A DNA stretch of 9,035 bases, from NCBI GenBank assembly GCA_017475805.1, contig JAFVEW010000340.1, positions 1 to 9,035 on the forward strand, written 5' to 3'. The first letter of the stretch is position 1; every line of letters begins with the position of its first letter. This document shows positions 1 to 9,035 of this stretch, one piece after another. Below the pieces are notes generated by a model. That model made no database searches and was not told where the DNA came from. It saw only the letters and a list, made by a program, of their open reading frames with translations. The position numbers and the translations under genes are program-made. This DNA is from Synergistaceae bacterium (GTDB lineage Bacteria; Synergistota; Synergistia; Synergistales; Aminobacteriaceae).

Positions 1-219
1 CGACGTGAAAGCGAAGAATCTTTCCCAGCGAAGGACAAAGACTCTCCTGCGGACGAACGTTTTATTTCTAATGTTTTGCTCGAAATTGAAGAAGATAGAA
101 GCCCGATAAGCGTAAATTACAAACCTGCGCCAAAAGTCGAAGCTCCTGCAACAGCCGAAGACGCTCCAGCACAAGAACAAACTGCAGAAGTTTTTGAAGC
201 AGCTCCTTCAGATGAATAA
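1..219 (+). CDS. C-terminal tail of an acidic protein, possibly RNA polymerase omega subunit (5' end off-window)
   Basis: Reading frame 1 is open from the first base to TAA at 217-219, giving 72 C-terminal residues. The segment runs from a charged stretch (RRESEESF) through NVLLEIEEDRSPISV to an Ala/Pro/Glu-rich, low-complexity acidic tail ending in APSDE. The part around LLEIEED could match the end of the omega fold, where the family has a pattern like ALEEIAEGKI. Omega (rpoZ) is commonly found directly upstream of coaBC and priA in many bacteria, so position also fits. If so, it would be the small subunit that supports RNA polymerase assembly, here with a tail of about 40 extra residues. 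Its stop overlaps the coaBC start (ATGAATAA), implying translational coupling. The identification is inference from weak similarity plus gene order; the open frame itself is clear. Confidence 0.5.
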   Translation, partial: RRESEESFPAKDKDSPADERFISNVLLEIEEDRSPISVNYKPAPKVEAPATAEDAPAQEQTAEVFEAAPSDE

Positions 220-1402
220 CTGGAAATCAGGCCGTAAAATCCTTTTAGGCATAACGGGAGGAATCGCGGCCTATAAAATTCCTGCACTCGTTAGATTAAT
301 TAAAAAAGCTGAATGCGAAGTCGAAATAATTTTGACGGACTTTGCTAAAAATTTTGTTACGCCTATGACTCTTGAAACTCTTTCAGGGCATCAGGTTTGG
401 ACAAACGAAAATTTTGATTTTCATATCCCTCACATTAAATTAAATGACTGGGCGGAAATTTTTGTAATCGCTCCGTGTACGGCTAACACTCTTGCGAAAA
501 TTGCTCACGGAATTGCAGATAATTTATTAACTTCGGCGGCGGTTGCTGCTCATTGTCCTGTTTTAATTTTTCCGGCAATGAATGAACATATGTTTGAAAA
601 TAAAGCTACGCAAGAAAATATAAAAATTTTATCTGAACGAGACTTGAAAGTCATGGCTCCTGCTGAAGGCGAATTAGCTTGCGGAGTTTCAGGCAAGGGC
701 CGAATGAATGAACCTAATGAAATAATGCTTGAAATTTTCAGAGCTTTGTCGCCCGTTCATGATTTAAGCGGAAAAAATGTCTTAGTAACTACCGGGCCGA
801 CGCATGAATATATAGATCCGGTGAGATTTATTTCTAATCCAAGCTCAGGAAAAATGGGCGCGGCTATGGCTCGTGCGGCGTGGTATAGAGGCGCGAACGT
901 GAAAATAATTTCAGGACCTGTTGAAATTAATTCGTACGGCTTTGAAGTTATAAAAATTAAATCCGCGCTTGAAATGTTAGACGCCGTGAAAAAAAATTTG
1001 TCGTGGGCTGACTACATTATAAAAGCTGCGGCGGTCGGTGATTATCGTGCAAAAAATTTTTCAGGGCAAAAAATCAAACGAGAAGGCAAAGATAATTTAA
1101 CTATCGAGCTTGAACAAAATCCTGATATTTCCGCAGAAGTCGGTAAATTGAAACGAGAAAATCAAATTTTGATCGGCTTTGCTGCTGAGACTCAAAACGT
1201 TTCAGAGAACGCGAGAGAAAAATTAAGGCGGAAAAATTTAGATTTTATCTTAGCTAACGATGTCATGGCTGAAGGATCAGGCTTTGCGACAGACACTAAC
1301 ACTTTGAAATTAATTCCGAGAGACGAAAACAAAAACGAAAAAATTTATTCAGGCTTAAAAGAAGACATAGCTTTTGAAATTTGGAACGATGTTTCTTTAT
1401 GA
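212..1402 (+). CDS. coaBC: Bifunctional phosphopantothenoylcysteine decarboxylase / phosphopantothenate-cysteine ligase
   Basis: A 396-residue cytosolic enzyme for two steps of coenzyme A synthesis: CTP-dependent joining of 4'-phosphopantothenate to cysteine (CoaB), then FMN-dependent decarboxylation to 4'-phosphopantetheine (CoaC). Length is normal for the fused Dfp protein. The CoaC half (about 1-180) shows the flavin-binding start LLGITGGIAAYK (11-22), catalytic His74 in HIKL, the PAMN motif (121-124) and the LACG.SGKGRM segment with Cys157. The CoaB half (about 185-396) shows VTTGPTHEYIDPVRFISNPS (192-211), KAAAVGDYR (271-279, where Gly replaces the more usual second Ala), KIKR (287-290) with the likely catalytic lysine, and LAND (347-350). 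ATG at 212 is chosen because it overlaps the upstream stop and places the first strand correctly; a TTG at 194 would add six residues. No Shine-Dalgarno is visible, so translation is probably coupled. Confidence 0.97.
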   Translation: MNNWKSGRKILLGITGGIAAYKIPALVRLIKKAECEVEIILTDFAKNFVTPMTLETLSGHQVWTNENFDFHIPHIKLNDWAEIFVIAPCTANTLAKIAHGIADNLLTSAAVAAHCPVLIFPAMNEHMFENKATQENIKILSERDLKVMAPAEGELACGVSGKGRMNEPNEIMLEIFRALSPVHDLSGKNVLVTTGPTHEYIDPVRFISNPSSGKMGAAMARAAWYRGANVKIISGPVEINSYGFEVIKIKSALEMLDAVKKNLSWADYIIKAAAVGDYRAKNFSGQKIKREGKDNLTIELEQNPDISAEVGKLKRENQILIGFAAETQNVSENAREKLRRKNLDFILANDVMAEGSGFATDTNTLKLIPRDENKNEKIYSGLKEDIAFEIWNDVSL

Positions 1403-3140
1403 TATAGCTGTTCCTGAAATGTCGCTGAATAATTTGACTTATCAATGTCCCGTCGAAATTCCTACGGGCATTAGAGTTATTGTCGAAGTTCAAAAACATT
1501 TTCACGCAGGATTTAATTTAGGCAAATCGAAGCAAAATTTAGATAACGAAATTAAAATCAAAGATATCGAGGGTCTTATTGACGAGCGTCCTGTTATAAC
1601 GCCTGACTTATGGGATATGGCTTTATATGCCGGCCGAGTATGTCTTTGCGGAGCTGCGGCGGCTTTGAAAGTAATTTTGCCAAGATTTTTAATCATGGGC
1701 GACAAATTCACACCGCCAAGAAATTTTAATTTTGATTCAAGAAATTTTAGAGAAATTAATTTTTTTAATCCGTTTGACTCTGAACGGGTTAATTTTTATT
1801 TAAGCGAATTAAAACAAGGCGAACGAACTTTAATTTTATTTTCTCAAAAGACAGCGGCTGAAAATTTTTTTAACTCCTTGCCCGAAGAATTAAAAAATCG
1901 TGCTTTATTATGGCAGTCATCAGGCGGAAAAAATTATCGGCTCTCATGGATTCAAACTCATGAAGGAAAATTTGATTTAGTCATCGGCACGGCAGGAGCA
2001 ATTTTCGCACCTTTAATGCCGGAAAAAATTATTATTGAAGACGAAGCAAGCAAAAATTTTATTATTCCGCCTGTCTTAAATATTTCTGCTCTAAGTTTAG
2101 CCGGACGCCGGGCGGCATTTTTGGGATCAAAATTCGTAACAGGAGGCCGCTATCCGTCATTAAAAACTTTTGTGCGTTCAAAACCTGAAGAAAAAATTTT
2201 CCCCGAACGAAAAAATATAATTTTCGCCGATATTTTTCACTACAAGACCCGCAAAGAAAAATCAAAAGGTGTCGAAGGTAATATTCCATTGACTTTTTCA
2301 TTAATTAAAAACACATACAGGGAGTTAATAAATAAAAACAGTGTCATATGGATTTTAGACAGGCTTGGAGAATCATCAGAAGTTTTTTGTTCACGCTGCG
2401 GCGAGAATGTTAAATGCCCTGAATGTGGAAATTCAATGAGGAGCGAAAATGAAGGTAAGACTCTACGCTGTCGAATTTGCGGCGCGACTCGTGATTTGCC
2501 GGAGAAATGCGAAAGCTGCGGCTTTGAAGTTTTAGCGGGACGTCGGCCGGGACTTGAGGCTCTTGCGAAAATTGCTGAAAAATATTACGACAAAGTTATT
2601 TTATACGCTAATAAATATTCGCGGATTAAAAAAAATTCTTTAATTTTAAGCACTCGGCGCGGCCTTGAACTTTGCGAGAAAATTAATCCGTCTTTAATAG
2701 CTTGGCTTGATTTAGATTTAGAACTTGTATTTCCTGGACATGATACTAAATTAGAAGTTTTTAATTCATTATGTGAATCATATTGGCGCGGACGAGAAAA
2801 AAACTCTAATCGAAAAATTCTAATTCAATCTCGAAATAAAGGAATGAAAGTCGCGAAATTTTTTCCGCAGGGCTGGTCAAAATTTTTCCCGGTTGAACTT
2901 GCTGAACGTCGAGAATTTAATTTGCCGCCGTTCGGTTATGTCGTTGAAATCGAAACTCAAAATTCAAACTTAAGAGAGAAAATTTTAGATGCGTTTTTTG
3001 ACGACGGAATTTTCGTAATGGATTCGGGCGACGAGTCTCAGCCGTTGCATATCAATACAGAGTCGCTTGAATCTATTGAAAAAGTTTTAAGCACAATAAA
3101 ATTTTCACCGAAAGAATTAAAAATCACGATGCAAAATTAG
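1389..3140 (+). CDS. priA: Primosomal protein N' (PriA), degenerate helicase form with intact zinc-binding region
   Basis: PriA normally recognises stalled or broken forks, unwinds DNA with ATP and loads the primosome. This 583-residue copy is far shorter than the usual 700-800. The 3'-end-binding N-domain is recognisable (IAVPEMSLNNLTYQ, then GIRVIVE, residues 6-33). The winged-helix region is nearly absent between about 105 and 120. Walker A (normally GVTGSGKTEVYL) aligns to NPFDSERVNFYL (127-138), so the glycines and the Lys-Thr pair are gone. DEEH is DEAS (218-221), the GSATPS box is GGRYPS (252-257), and the QxAGRAGR box is ESYWRGRE (463-470). Eight zinc-ligand cysteines remain (334, 337, 343, 346, 361, 364, 374, 377), as does the C-terminal PPFG (513-516). 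ATG at 1389 overlaps coaBC by 14 bases and fits the family start; an in-frame ATG at 1374 would add five residues. Identity is sure; the loss of ATPase activity is inferred. Confidence 0.9.
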   Translation: MFLYDIAVPEMSLNNLTYQCPVEIPTGIRVIVEVQKHFHAGFNLGKSKQNLDNEIKIKDIEGLIDERPVITPDLWDMALYAGRVCLCGAAAALKVILPRFLIMGDKFTPPRNFNFDSRNFREINFFNPFDSERVNFYLSELKQGERTLILFSQKTAAENFFNSLPEELKNRALLWQSSGGKNYRLSWIQTHEGKFDLVIGTAGAIFAPLMPEKIIIEDEASKNFIIPPVLNISALSLAGRRAAFLGSKFVTGGRYPSLKTFVRSKPEEKIFPERKNIIFADIFHYKTRKEKSKGVEGNIPLTFSLIKNTYRELINKNSVIWILDRLGESSEVFCSRCGENVKCPECGNSMRSENEGKTLRCRICGATRDLPEKCESCGFEVLAGRRPGLEALAKIAEKYYDKVILYANKYSRIKKNSLILSTRRGLELCEKINPSLIAWLDLDLELVFPGHDTKLEVFNSLCESYWRGREKNSNRKILIQSRNKGMKVAKFFPQGWSKFFPVELAERREFNLPPFGYVVEIETQNSNLREKILDAFFDDGIFVMDSGDESQPLHINTESLESIEKVLSTIKFSPKELKITMQN

Positions 3141-3175: not shown

Positions 3176-4074
3176 TTGAGAATGCAAAAAATTTTAAGCG
3201 CATTAATTTTAGTTTCATTGTTTTTAAGTCCGTCAGTTTTATTCGCAAAAGATAAAGACAAAGGCGAAGACAAGCCCGCGATTTTAATCGTGTCTTTTGG
3301 AACGTCAATGCCTGAAGCCCGAAAAGCTATTGATAATCTTGTCAACACTGCGAAAAAAGATTTCCTAATTTTGAAGTCCGTTTGGCTTTCACGTCAAACA
3401 TAATTCGCAGAAAATTAACAAGAGAATTTAACGAAAATATTTCTAATCCCGTTGAGGCTCTCGCAAAATTAAATGACGAAGGTTTTAATAAAGTCTTTAT
3501 CATGCCTACGCATATTATTCCGGGTGAAGAATATGACGAGATTCTAAATGTCTACGAGGCGTTCAGCATTTTAGAAGGCAAATACGGCTTTGAAGAATTA
3601 AAAATCGGCGCACCGTTCATGTATAGCTCCAAAGATTGCGAACGAATGGCCGAGATTTTAATTTCGCGTTTCAAAACTCAGCTCGAAGACAAAGAGACAG
3701 GTATTATTTTAATGGGTCATGGAACACCTGAACATTTTGCAAACGCTTTATATTCGTTGCTGCAAGTAGAACTTGATAAAAAATCATACGGAAAATTTTT
3801 CTTAGGGACTGTCGAAGCAACGCCTCAGATTGATGACGTCGTAGCTAACTTGAAAAGACATCCTGAAATTAAAAAGTTAGTTCTCTCGCCTTTAATGATT
3901 GTCGCTGGCGATCACGCTAATAATGACTTAGCCGGAGCTGATGATGAAGAATCTTGGCTTAATATCTTAAAGTCAAAAGGCTACGAAAATATTTCGACTT
4001 ATCTTGTCGGACTTGGAGAAGATGAAAATATAGCAAAAGATTTCGTGAAAAAAATTCATGAACTCATTGATTAA
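3176..4074 (+). pseudogene. cbiK: Exported CbiK-type sirohydrochlorin cobaltochelatase, interrupted by a -1 frameshift
   Basis: CbiK inserts Co2+ (or Fe2+) into sirohydrochlorin early in anaerobic cobalamin synthesis. Two overlapping frames together give a complete protein. Frame A (3176-3403) has a signal peptide (ILSALILVSLFLSPSVLFA) and the N-terminal strand ILIVSFGTSMPEARKAIDNL. Frame B (open from 3337, ending 4074) continues with FPNFEVRLAFTSNIIRRKL, PTHIIPGEEY, the metal-binding His in MGHG, VEATP and GDHANND with the second His. Joining them at the A-run 3353-3358 gives about 297 residues, a normal length for an exported CbiK. All active-site segments survive, so the break is either recent decay, a homopolymer sequencing error or recoding. 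The signal peptide recalls the periplasmic CbiKp of Desulfovibrio, which binds haem and has been linked to haem or metal transport. The gene overlaps the following permease by 17 bases, consistent with a tetrapyrrole or metal uptake role. Confidence 0.85.
3352..3361 (+). other. Frameshift site in cbiK (A6 run)
   Basis: Frame A reads GCG AAA AAA GAT TTC and leaves the family; a -1 step at the six A residues reads on into AGA TTT CCT AAT TTT, restoring the conserved FPNFEV segment. One extra A would do the same. The run is not a textbook A-AAA-AAG slippery heptamer in the zero frame, and I see no strong stem-loop just downstream, so programmed frameshifting is possible but not favoured. Confidence 0.7.
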
Positions 4075-5783: not shown

Positions 5784-6776
5784 TTAAGACCCTAACGCTT
5801 CAAAGCCGTTTAATTTTTTTCCTGTGTCAAACTCGTAGCAGCTTCTGAAATTTCCTTCGACCATATCGCGGACATCTTCAGCCGTGTAAAATGCCGTATG
5901 AGGACTCAAAATTACATTCGGAAATGATCTCAAAATAGCCAGCTTCGGATTAATCATAACTTCGCCCATTAAGTCATAATAATAAAGGCCGTTTTCAAAT
6001 TCAACGACGTCAAGAGCCGCGCCGCCGAGTTTGCCGATTTCAATTCCGTGAATTAAAGCCTCAGAATCAATTAATTTTCCGCGCGCCGTGTTAATGATAT
6101 AAGCTCCGTCTTTCATTTTTGAAATTGCAGCGTCATCAATTATATGATGATTTTCTTCGTTAGCGTTCATGTGAAGAGTAATAATGTCGGATTCGCGTAA
6201 AATTTCATCGAGACTGACATATTTTGCAAATTTTTTTGCCTCGTCGTTTTCAAAAATATCGTAAGCTAAGAGTCTGCAGCCAAAGCCCGATAAATGTTTT
6301 AAGACCGTGCGTCCGATTTTGCCCGTTCCCATAACTCCGACAGTACAGCAGGAAAAATCGCGGCCAAGTTTATTTTTTAATGAATAATCTTGAAGCTCAG
6401 CGCGTTTTAAGATATGAGCAAATTTCCTGACGCTCGCAAGCATTAACATAATCGCGTAATCTGCGACTCCTGTCGGCGTGTAAGTAACGTTATCGACTTT
6501 CATTCCTAATTCACGTGCCGCATTTAAGTCAATATGATCGTAACCGATTGAGCGCGTTAAAATATATTTAACTCCGACATCGTGAAAAGATTTCAAAACT
6601 TTTGCGGACATATCGCACGGTGTACAGCTAACTCCGTCGCAGCCTGAAGCAAGCGAAATATTTTTTTCGTTCGGATAATCGGTCGAGTAAACGAAATCGA
6701 TTTTATATTTTTCTTTCATTTCGTTGGCAAAATAAAGTTCGTCAAACTCTCGAAGGGCATAAAAACAAATTTTCAT
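5784..6776 (-). CDS. D-2-hydroxyacid dehydrogenase, VanH / D-lactate dehydrogenase-like
   Basis: A 330-residue NAD-dependent cytosolic dehydrogenase that interconverts a 2-keto acid and a D-2-hydroxy acid, most like the D-lactate dehydrogenase/VanH branch. The substrate domain contains TRSIGYDHIDL (74-84) and YTPTGVADYA (99-108). The nucleotide fold has GTGKIG (150-155) and Asp173 at the end of strand two, which favours NAD over NADP. The catalytic set is complete: Arg232 in NTARG, Glu261 in VVEFE, His293 in SPHTAFYT. The spacings (29 and 32) equal those of Lactobacillus bulgaricus D-LDH (Arg235, Glu264, His296). The FYYD-like segment LYYYDLMGEVMINPKL also matches that branch. It is the last gene of the minus-strand operon, 34 bases after the transglutaminase gene, with its own AAGGAGG. 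The exact substrate (pyruvate, a branched or aromatic keto acid) cannot be read from the sequence, and there is no vanA-type ligase beside it. Confidence 0.92.
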   Translation of the reverse strand: MKICFYALREFDELYFANEMKEKYKIDFVYSTDYPNEKNISLASGCDGVSCTPCDMSAKVLKSFHDVGVKYILTRSIGYDHIDLNAARELGMKVDNVTYTPTGVADYAIMLMLASVRKFAHILKRAELQDYSLKNKLGRDFSCCTVGVMGTGKIGRTVLKHLSGFGCRLLAYDIFENDEAKKFAKYVSLDEILRESDIITLHMNANEENHHIIDDAAISKMKDGAYIINTARGKLIDSEALIHGIEIGKLGGAALDVVEFENGLYYYDLMGEVMINPKLAILRSFPNVILSPHTAFYTAEDVRDMVEGNFRSCYEFDTGKKLNGFEALGS

Positions 6777-6810: not shown

Positions 6811-7608
6811 TTATAACGAAGAGACTTCGTGAACTTTTACTTTAATTTCTTGCGTTTGTTTACCGCCACCATAAAAAACTCCCTGATTTATCGAACAGTC
6901 TTTTGCGTCGCGGCCTGAAGAAATTTTTATATAAGTATCATCGCATTCTCGATTGTGCGTAGGATCGAGCATTCGCCACTGGCCGTCATCATAAATTTCT
7001 GTCCATGCGTGTGTCGCGCCTTCGCCTGGAATCATTCCTGCAATATAACGGCAAGGTATTCTTTCAAGCCTGCATAGAGTTAAAAGTATGTGAGCATAAT
7101 CTTGACAGACACCGCGCCTTAAACTAAAAGATTCTTCGGCGGTTGTGTTTATTCCTGTTACGCCTTGAACGTAAGAAAAATCATCATAAATCATATTCAT
7201 AAAATAAAAAGCGCGTTCAAAATTATTTGAATAAAAACTTACCGGGTCAAGTCCTAAATGAAATTCCCTGATATTTTTTCCGGCTTTAGTTAGAGGTGTT
7301 TCATATTTGAAAATTCCAACCTTATATTCTTCGTCTTTCAATTTAGCGTTAATATTTATATCTGCTTCACCCTCTACGTCAACAGAAAAATGATCGTGCG
7401 TCTGCCTAGCTGTCCCGTAAACGCACGTATTTCCGAATGAATCTTTTTCCGTACTGCTGAAATGTATCGGATAAATTTCAACATGCTCATTAAAAATTTT
7501 TTGCCTCGCGTCCGTTGATGGAAAGCAACGCAGCTTGAAATGATGTTCGTGAACGGGCTGCTCAAATTTTAACTGCATGTGATATAAATATTGAAGTCTG
7601 CGAATCAT
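6811..7608 (-). CDS. Transglutaminase-like cysteine protease/amidase with bacterial transglutaminase N-domain
   Basis: A 265-residue cytosolic protein without signal peptide. The N-terminal beta domain (about 1-120) shows the family opening RLQYLYHMQLKFEQPVHEHH and LRCFP. The papain-like core (about 130-250) has the full triad: Cys168 in RRGVCQDYAH, His200 in GATHAWTEIY, Asp215 in LDPTHN. The closing GRDAKD (232-237) and GVFYGGG are also typical. Members of this family are predicted to cleave or transfer amide bonds. Next to ATP-grasp and alpha-E genes it is thought to hydrolyse, release or cyclise the peptide-like product. ATG 7608 is chosen because it gives the exact family N-terminus; no Shine-Dalgarno precedes it. 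The gap to the alpha-E stop is 15 bases, so the genes are surely co-transcribed. The true substrate is unknown. Confidence 0.93.
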   Translation of the reverse strand: MIRRLQYLYHMQLKFEQPVHEHHFKLRCFPSTDARQKIFNEHVEIYPIHFSSTEKDSFGNTCVYGTARQTHDHFSVDVEGEADININAKLKDEEYKVGIFKYETPLTKAGKNIREFHLGLDPVSFYSNNFERAFYFMNMIYDDFSYVQGVTGINTTAEESFSLRRGVCQDYAHILLTLCRLERIPCRYIAGMIPGEGATHAWTEIYDDGQWRMLDPTHNRECDDTYIKISSGRDAKDCSINQGVFYGGGKQTQEIKVKVHEVSSL

Positions 7609-7623
7609 GAATTAATTTTATTT

Positions 7624-8247
7624 TTATTCTATTAAATTTTCAACAGCTTTAATAATTTCAGAATTATTTATTTCATTTCCATTCGCAAGAGCTTTTAATC
7701 TTTCGAGATTTTCTGAGTTATACCGCAAACCTGTTTTCGTGATTCTGTAAGTCAGGCGAGAAATTTCTCTTTTTATATAATCGAAATTCAAATTCATACG
7801 CGCATATAAATCAACACGCTCAATTCTTTTTCCAAGTTTTATAAGTCCGCGAACATGCTCATCTTCGATTATGTCGTCAGCCATTCCCCAAAACGCTACG
7901 ATATTGTCAATGACTTTTTGAAGATTTAGTAATATAGACGCTTTAGACTTTTCGGCCTTATTCATTTCGTAGAGAGCTAATTGAATATAGCTGAAAGTCT
8001 CTGTGCCGATTTCGTCTCGCAAAACTATGGCATTATCATAAGCCCGCAAAAGGCTTGAACGAATCGACGCAGGATTTTGTTCATCGAAGCAGAAATTTTT
8101 TACAAATTCTAATTTAGATTCATGCGTTGTCGAGCCTGTCATAGAGTCAAATTTTTCCGCGAACGAACGGAGTCCTGTATAAACTCTCTCGCTGTATCGG
8201 CCAAGCCATAATAATCTGTCGCTGTTCTCAAGTGATAAAACGTTCAT
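7624..8247 (-). CDS. Alpha-E domain protein (DUF403 family), short form
   Basis: An all-helical cytosolic protein of 207 residues. The N-terminal signature LLWLGRYSERV (12-22) carries the conserved Glu-Arg pair that names the family. NPASI and a helix like LLRAYDNAIVLRDEI follow the family pattern, and a second GKRIERVD motif (about 138-145) matches the usual repeat of the ER motif. Alpha-E proteins occur almost always with circularly permuted ATP-grasp and transglutaminase genes and are predicted to cooperate with the ligase, perhaps as carrier or scaffold; no biochemical role is established. The copy is about two thirds of the usual length of roughly 300 residues; the reduction seems to fall between the two ER motifs and at the C-terminus. 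ATG 8247 is preferred; an in-frame TTG at 8253 is also possible. It begins 17 bases after the ATP-grasp stop. Confidence 0.87.
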   Translation of the reverse strand: MNVLSLENSDRLLWLGRYSERVYTGLRSFAEKFDSMTGSTTHESKLEFVKNFCFDEQNPASIRSSLLRAYDNAIVLRDEIGTETFSYIQLALYEMNKAEKSKASILLNLQKVIDNIVAFWGMADDIIEDEHVRGLIKLGKRIERVDLYARMNLNFDYIKREISRLTYRITKTGLRYNSENLERLKALANGNEINNSEIIKAVENLIE

Positions 8248-8254
8248 AATCAAT

Positions 8255-8266
8255 TCCTAACTCCTC
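8255..8266 (-). promoter_or_regulatory. Ribosome binding sites that decide the alpha-E start
   Basis: On the minus strand GAGGAG (8266-8261) lies 7 bases before TTG 8253 and 13 before ATG 8247, while AGGA (8258-8255) lies 7 bases before ATG 8247. Either start is served. GAGGAG overlaps the stop codon of the ATP-grasp gene, which couples the two genes. Confidence 0.5.
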
Positions 8267-9035
8267 ATTCCTCACTGTCTTTCAAGACCCAAGTATCTTT
8301 GAAGCCGCCGCCTTGCGACGAATTAACGATAAAAGAATCGGGATTGCGTGAAAATCTTGTGAGGCCGCTTTTCCATACAATAGGCTCATCAGCCATCAAA
8401 ACAAAGGCTCGAAGGTCTGCTTTTCGCGGAACTCTTTTACCCGTTTGACTGTTTTCAAAAATATCAATGTCAAGAAAGTCAATTACTTCTTGAGCTATGA
8501 ATCTTCTCGGCTCAGATTTTAATAACGCTATGAAATTTTCTTTATCTTGCCTCGAAAATTTATTGCCGAACATTACGCCATAACCTCCAGCTTCAGCAAC
8601 GTCTTTCAAGACGAGATTATCAAAATTTTCAATAACATATTTCATGTCATTTTCATAATACGGCAGATAAGTCGGGGCATTTTGTAAAATAGGTTCTTCG
8701 CCGAGATAATATTTAATCATTGCGGGCACGAAATAATAAATCCCTTTATCATCAGCTACGCCGTTGCCGGGAGCGTTGATCAAAGCAACGTTGCCTTTTT
8801 TGTAAATGTCAAAAATGTGAGGTATTCCGATTAAAGACTCTCGATTAAAATTCACCGGGTCAAGATAGTCATCAGAGATTCTGCGATAGACCGCTCCGAC
8901 TTTTTCTTTTTTGCCTGAATAGTCAATGAAATATAAATTCTCGCCTTCGACTGTCAAATCTTCACATGTAACTAAATGCGCGCCCGTCTGTTCAGCAAGA
9001 TATGAATGTTCAAAATAAGCTGCGTTAAATCTTCC
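8265..9035 (-). CDS. Circularly permuted ATP-grasp protein, C-terminal part (5' end off-window)
   Basis: The frame is open from the right edge (position 9035) to TGA at 8265-8267, giving 256 C-terminal residues; the whole protein is probably about 450-500. An internal TTG at 8957 is not the start, because conserved family sequence continues upstream of it. Visible motifs, numbered from the window edge: NAAYFEHSYLAEQTGAHLV (4-22), YRRISDDYLDP (50-60), NAPGNGVADDKGIYY (87-101), YYLGEEP, LVLKDVAEAGGYGVMFG with the ATP-binding lysine and glycine-rich loop (about 141-157), ADLRAFV (206-212) and NSSQGGGFKDTWVL near the end. The DUF404/DUF407-type enzymes are predicted to form amide or peptide bonds by way of an acyl-phosphate using ATP. 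The gene is first among those visible in an operon with alpha-E, transglutaminase-like and dehydrogenase genes. The family assignment is firm; the substrate is unknown. Confidence 0.93.
   Translation of the reverse strand, partial: GRFNAAYFEHSYLAEQTGAHLVTCEDLTVEGENLYFIDYSGKKEKVGAVYRRISDDYLDPVNFNRESLIGIPHIFDIYKKGNVALINAPGNGVADDKGIYYFVPAMIKYYLGEEPILQNAPTYLPYYENDMKYVIENFDNLVLKDVAEAGGYGVMFGNKFSRQDKENFIALLKSEPRRFIAQEVIDFLDIDIFENSQTGKRVPRKADLRAFVLMADEPIVWKSGLTRFSRNPDSFIVNSSQGGGFKDTWVLKDSEE

Follow-up and report, generated by a model that had tools for sequence, protein, structure and literature searches.

PriA lacking most residues of its helicase motor in the phylum Synergistota

Introduction

The helicase motor of PriA is not kept in every bacterial lineage. 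According to a report on the protein of Deinococcus radiodurans (PMC4504706), this PriA shows no ATPase or unwinding activity and still binds forks and DnaB, and the helicase motifs of PriA are well conserved except in Deinococcus-Thermus. With regard to Escherichia coli, PMC10175261 describes how fork binding pivots the zinc region of PriA, forms a pore for single-stranded DNA and exposes the face to which PriB docks, and there reloading of DnaB was assayed with the ATPase-inactive K230A protein. Cooperation between DciA and PriA is suggested as possible in a paper on Caulobacter DciA (PMC9825169). The PriA pseudohelicase is thus already known as a kind, and Synergistota is a large new case of it, presented here from the priA gene of a Synergistaceae bacterium (assembly GCA_017475805.1, contig JAFVEW010000340.1), the whole analysed stretch of 9,035 nucleotides being called the window.

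No prior report of the loss of the PriA motor in Synergistota or Aerophobetes was found in the open-licence text of PMC. What is new is that the motor is missing phylum-wide in Synergistota, that a second motorless clade includes members named Candidatus Aerophobetes, and that Patescibacteria have lost it patchily. These groups are natural experiments on the purpose of PriA unwinding, a long-open question, since evolution has removed the motor in them and unwinding can there be studied apart from primosome assembly.

Results and Discussion

Motor motifs and zinc cysteines of the window protein

Alignment with PriA of E. coli K-12 placed NPFDSERVNFY of the window protein opposite the Walker A stretch GVTGSGKTEVY, with Arg133 at the position of Lys230 and Tyr137 opposite Tyr234, while GGRYPS aligned to GSATPA of motif III and ESYWRGR to the motif VI stretch. 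The eight cysteines at positions 334, 337, 343, 346, 361, 364, 374 and 377 follow each other at distances of 3, 6, 3, 15, 3, 10 and 3 residues, exactly as do those of E. coli PriA between residues 436 and 479. The replacement of the Walker A, motif III and motif VI stretches, the open frame of 583 codons and the cysteine spacing had been read from the DNA letters by the original prediction and were confirmed; its motif II, with DEAS set against DEEH, was one residue off, the correct counterpart being EDEA (Glu217 to Ala220). The same prediction held that every helicase motif had been lost. This stands for the main catalytic residues, as Walker A, the Walker B histidine, the Ser-Ala-Thr of motif III and the greater part of motifs V and VI have disappeared, and it goes too far for the remnants, namely the motif IV-type Arg325 and Gly327 (Arg427 and Gly429 in E. 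coli), the motif III proline Pro256, Pro208, the third motif II acid Glu219, and Arg467 opposite Arg584 of motif VI. Chance is excluded, since the same motif pattern recurs in the other Synergistota sequences described below.

Family identity, domains and fold

In Pfam, the window protein matched the PriA 3'-DNA-binding domain PF17764 with 40.7 bits against a cut-off of 22.7 (E 2e-10), and no helicase domain was found in it. It scored 118 bits with TIGR00595, the NCBIfam equivalog of the PriA helicase, below the cut-off of 230.35, and 13.3 bits against 26 with Zn_ribbon_PriA, the Pfam model of the cysteine-rich region. In the PDB, a profile of its relatives retrieved full-length chains of PriA (about 1e-43 to 1e-44), the alignments spanning both helicase-fold lobes and the zinc region. 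The AlphaFold model of the window protein has the PriA fold without the winged helix, and its best structural match was the fork-bound chain 8fak_H (TM-score normalised to the query, TMq, 0.80), the crystal forms giving 0.62–0.69. The protein thus resembles E. coli PriA in domain order, in fold and in its equally spaced cysteines, and differs from it in that the E. coli protein works as a motor and carries a winged helix.

The winged-helix domain lies between the 3'-DNA-binding domain and lobe 1, where the window protein has a linker of only 14 residues compared with 103 in E. coli. This linker measures 9–35 residues across the Synergistota sequences. It is also short (27–42) in 13 of the 26 PriAs used for comparison, so the absence of the winged helix is not decisive for membership in PriA. 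The idea of a window model fixed in its fork-bound form was ruled out by a helicase-type control, P0172, which was modelled likewise and by TM-score again came closest to 8fak_H (TMq 0.76, TMt 0.91), 4nl4 coming first by E-value; the shape is therefore uninformative on the motorless form.

Extent of the motor loss across Synergistota

At an E-value of 1e-3 or better, the window protein matched 154 proteins. The 120 matches listed range from 98% to 45% identity and are mostly 560–620 residues long; none of them carries the P-loop pattern G..[GSAN].GK[TS], and the source names given for eight are each a 'hypothetical protein' of a Synergistaceae bacterium. A scan of contigs with the single window protein gave no match. 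Scanning GTDB contigs with an alignment of relatives yielded 59 loci, comprising rumen and gut Synergistaceae, the complete genome of Fretibacterium fastidiosum, a Thermovirga, further Synergistaceae metagenome-assembled genomes (MAGs) and one outlier from Portnoybacteria.

Among 185 Synergistota genomes, only four exceeded the TIGR00595 cut-off (L074–L077), and these four also lack Walker A. No helicase-type PriA above the cut-off was found in the 185 genomes, where one split over draft contigs could escape. A second profile, A2, found PriA in 173 of them, with one match in 164 and two or three in nine, and none in the remaining 12. Since A2 alone might also pick up a helicase-type PriA, the phylum-wide claim rests on both searches and on the motifs themselves, which were read directly for 116 of the 185 genomes. 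The loss is therefore lineage-wide, which the original prediction had left to be seen from relatives, and, as read from these relatives, no helicase-type PriA above the cut-off accompanies the motorless form.

For residue counts, 156 distinct Synergistota sequences (the window protein and 155 others) were aligned with E. coli PriA and 25 other PriAs, one actinobacterial PriA and nine degenerate sequences from Patescibacteria. Sequences sharing their last 400 residues with another were dropped, as were L061–L066 (the same genes as other loci), the C-terminal piece L057, and L059, the Portnoybacteria protein, which is carried as L104. Among partial sequences, L026 and L094 do not reach the Walker site and L039 and L044 do not reach the cysteines, L026 and L044 being from one MAG. 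The comparison set of 26 includes L133 from Patescibacteria, whose motifs are eroded though Lys230 is kept. Many of the Synergistota sequences are near relatives, so that a count gives the number of sequences and cannot be taken as a number of events.

At the position of the Walker lysine, 153 of the 154 sequences covering the site have arginine, one has glutamine and none has lysine. All eight zinc cysteines are present in each of the 154 sequences covering them, 120 with the exact E. coli spacing. The near-invariant catalytic residues of the comparison set, Lys230, Thr231, His323, Thr358, Gly545, Gln580, are kept at 0–1% in Synergistota, and its near-invariant structural residues are retained. 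New near-invariant residues have appeared in the phylum, i.e. Arg133, Gly253, Trp321, Pro387, Trp439, Ser464, Gly468, Arg475 and Trp496. By sequence or model, the PriA fold is kept and most residues for ATP binding, hydrolysis and coupling to DNA have disappeared, a state seen across the phylum. A loose GK[TS] pattern occurs somewhere in 16 Synergistota sequences, including that of the window, and in five of the 26 comparison sequences; it is uninformative and was not used.

Some positions of the old pocket are nonetheless under selection for something, as seen from the near-invariant Arg133, from the third motif II acid (glutamate at the Glu219 column in 155 of 156 sequences, with histidine at the fourth position of the motif in none) and from the frequent arginine at the Arg584 column of motif VI (133 of 156). 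The protein might accordingly still bind or hydrolyse nucleotide through Arg133 together with Glu217, Asp218 and Glu219 and move on DNA. We consider this very unlikely, as important residues in motifs III, V and VI have been lost too and acidic residues frequently stand in place of the P-loop glycines, with aspartate at the Gly227 column in 113 and glutamate or aspartate at the Gly229 column in 90 of 156 sequences; such residues would be expected to repel phosphate. Furthermore, the PriA of D. radiodurans, with motifs I and II degraded and the lysine changed to arginine, had no measurable ATPase activity (PMC4504706).

Selection on the gene

The ratio of nonsynonymous to synonymous substitution rates (dN/dS, Nei-Gojobori) lies between 0.094 and 0.346, with a median of 0.166, in 37 genome pairs with unsaturated dS, the same pairs giving a nearby value, 0.114, for coaBC. 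All 219 pairs with dS of 0.1 to 1.5 together give a median of 0.30, with no value above 0.70, and the window gene compared with L001 gives 0.25. Relatives thus show the purifying selection for which the original prediction had looked to dN/dS, and the zinc region and the 3'-DNA-binding domain are kept under it.

These values bear on the reading that the gene is a decaying copy, a pseudogene, with an active PriA encoded elsewhere in the genome. The destroyed motor motifs would agree with decay, one genome (G102) does hold two PriA copies, and the search covers the genomes of relatives rather than the window's own. Against this, dN/dS is below 1 in every pair of both samples, the cysteines are intact in every sequence covering them, no internal stop was found in PriA of relatives among the matches listed, none of the 185 genomes gave a helicase-type PriA above the cut-off, and both copies in G102 are motorless. 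RecG was full-length (over 450 bits) in 39 of 41 genomes, 30 of them over the cut-off, so helicases in general are not eroding. As far as relatives show, decay is rejected and hardly credible, and the motorless protein is presumably the sole PriA of the window's genome.

The two copies in G102 (L218 and L219) have a mutual dN/dS of 0.19 and reflect either a duplication or a mixed MAG. Genomes G004 and G083 gave only Mfd-type matches and no full-length RecG, by a draft gap or by loss; G004 is near the window by its PriA.

Comparison with other motorless PriAs

As in D. radiodurans PriA, both Walker A and Walker B have failed in the window protein and the Walker lysine has become arginine, a combination of degraded motifs I and II that marks the Deinococcus-Thermus pseudohelicases in PMC4504706 and is found here in the window (Arg133) and, for the arginine, in 153 of 154 Synergistota sequences. 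The window protein belongs to another phylum and lacks, in addition, the P-loop glycines, the winged helix and important residues in motifs III, V and VI, a difference set against a description limited to motifs I and II. By analogy with the D. radiodurans protein (PMC4504706), it is predicted to attach to forks and to DnaB and to have no ATPase activity.

In the same alignment, the actinobacterial PriA of Tsukamurella (L112) likewise has no GxGKT and differs from the window protein by a tryptophan at the lysine site and by other replacements. To our knowledge actinobacterial PriA lacks helicase motifs, for which L112 is the only support here. With the models NF011451–NF011455 of PRK14873, which we take to be the label of actinobacterial PriA in NCBIfam, the window protein scored 25–44 bits, below cut-offs of 812–1147.

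A search with L074, the most PriA-like member in Synergistota, found a P-loop in 117 of the 120 matches listed. The three without it are P0121 (the protein of L074 itself), its relative P0122, and P0124. Searching with P0124 brought 56 more motorless PriAs (P0241–P0296, some partial), three of them named Candidatus Aerophobetes. The 57 proteins of this Aerophobetes-containing clade resemble the window protein in having no P-loop where covered, in the loss of His323 and in the eight cysteines, kept where covered with one gap at the last cysteine in one of the 57. They differ in that His323 is replaced by glutamate in all 56 sequences covering it, in a mixed Lys230 column (R 27, K 22, S 6, V 1), and in forming a clade of their own (support 100), which the unconstrained tree places near P0303 and P0347 and away from Synergistota. 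P0303, for its part, has the look of a half-eroded motor (GVRGSGKS, DQEH, SAAP, GWVGR).

In 59 genomes of Patescibacteria, 18 helicase-type PriAs (L122–L132, L134–L140) were found alongside at least 10 degenerate ones (L104, L133, L142–L149). Together with the Aerophobetes-containing clade, the latter indicate that loss of the motor recurs. Many of these 59 genomes gave no clear PriA with the profile used.

Origin of the losses

In each of three quick trees, a single branch separates the Synergistota sequences from the others (98, 87 and 95). A joint clade of Synergistota with the Aerophobetes-containing sequences was not rejected (approximately unbiased test, AU, p 0.675), the constrained tree even scoring higher, nor was a joint clade of Synergistota with three degenerate Patescibacteria (p 0.265). 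The independence of the losses is therefore not settled by gene trees. Of the original suggestion of an independent loss in another phylum, the other phylum holds by taxonomy, and independence does not follow, given the unrejected clade with Aerophobetes and a possible common origin with the loss in Deinococcota, where lysine likewise became arginine. The loss in Patescibacteria would be independent, barring gene transfer, because helicase-type members occur in the same phylum. Inside Synergistota, three deep lineages (the L074 type, L075–L078 and the core) stand on long branches; more than one loss is possible there, and the shared arginine argues against it. Phage records included 31 with distant matches, none of them covering 80% of the query.

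A tentative scenario, possible but doubtful as a whole, is that Synergistota lost the motor at their base, perhaps already in a deep ancestor shared with Aerophobota and with Deinococcota, whose Walker lysine is likewise an arginine, and that it was lost once more within Patescibacteria. The ATP pocket would then have been rebuilt, by the arginine and by new near-invariant tryptophans and arginines, into a fixed surface for a partner or the fork, and PriA unwinding would not be near-universal in bacterial restart. In that case, a motorless restart platform linked to DciA would be ancient and widespread beside the system of E. coli.

Partners and proposed mode of action

Partners were searched for in 41 genomes drawn evenly from the phylum. 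The N-terminal domain of DnaB was present in all 41 and DciA in 39 (37 over the cut-off), and the DnaD domain PF07261 in none of the 41; as DnaD was not found, DciA is the probable partner in reloading. From this survey and from the papers on D. radiodurans PriA, on E. coli fork binding and on DciA, the following mechanism is proposed. PriA would bind abandoned forks through its 3'-DNA-binding domain, the two lobes, the C-terminal part and the cysteine-rich region. Binding would expose, without ATP, a surface at which DnaB is reloaded, probably with DciA, and forks needing strand removal would be prepared by other helicases, e.g. RecG. Primosome assembly without ATPase activity is predicted for Synergistota PriA, and the window protein is probably a pseudohelicase that acts as an ATP-independent fork platform for DnaB and DciA.

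Several observations weigh against this assignment. The residues of E. coli PriA to which PriB docks are not kept in the window protein, so the partner surface must differ. Those presumed to contact the SSB tail, whose numbering is uncertain, give a mixed picture, as the Trp83 column has tryptophan in 121 of 156 sequences and tyrosine in the window, the Tyr87 column is mostly not tyrosine, and the other presumed positions vary or fall in gaps. Besides the motif VI arginine counted above, the Walker B acid column is still acidic (D 69 and E 87 of 156). Twelve of the 185 genomes are without a PriA match, through draft gaps or real absence, and nine of 173 have more than one matched piece, only G102 having been inspected. 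The fork-bound shape of the model, finally, is unspecific.

The altered docking face and the new near-invariant residues, which suggest a rebuilt surface and a new partner, would also suit a scaffold that binds forks or single-stranded DNA outside restart, for example as a structural part of the replisome or in origin firing. Such a role appears unlikely, given that the cysteine-rich region is kept and that DnaB and DciA are there for reloading. Entries named 'primosomal protein N'' in Synergistota, in the Aerophobetes-containing clade and in part of Patescibacteria are not to be taken for helicases.

Gene neighbourhood

The features of the locus are given in Table 1. Of 145 Synergistota loci with 700 or more bases available for inspection, 137 have coaBC directly 5' of priA, and the pair is also present in Bacillus velezensis; this gene order indicates that the window priA is a vertically inherited ortholog.

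Table 1. Positions of priA, its former motifs and coaBC in the window
Feature	Position	Strand	Source
Motorless PriA, 583 aa (ATG at 1389, stop codon ending at 3140): 3'-DNA-binding domain, two helicase-fold lobes, cysteine-rich region and C-terminal part, without winged helix	1389..3140	+	
PriA 3'-DNA-binding domain PF17764, residues 7–98	1407..1682	+	Pfam
Former Walker A NPFDSERVNFY, residues 127–137; P-loop glycines replaced (D130 at G227, E132 at G229), R133 at the K230 position	1767..1799	+	
Former motif II EDEA, residues 217–220, in place of DEEH	2037..2048	+	
Former motif III GGRYPS, residues 252–257, in place of GSATPA	2142..2159	+	
Cysteine-rich region, eight zinc-site cysteines C334 to C377, E. 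coli spacing	2388..2519	+	
Former motif VI stretch CESYWRGR, residues 462–469	2772..2795	+	
coaBC, directly upstream of priA, its end overlapping the first 14 bases of priA; usual priA neighbour	194..1402	+	

Downstream of priA follow a gene for a cobaltochelatase (CbiK) and then one for a FecCD permease. Within the CbiK gene (3182–4074), the N-terminal part from about 3182 appears to be read in another frame than 3382–4074, by a frameshift or a sequencing error, and the short N-terminal piece had no match in Pfam. On the minus strand, at 6811–9035, lies a trio of genes for transglutaminase-like, Alpha-E and circularly permuted ATP-grasp proteins, adjoined by a gene for a D-2-hydroxyacid dehydrogenase at 5784–6776.

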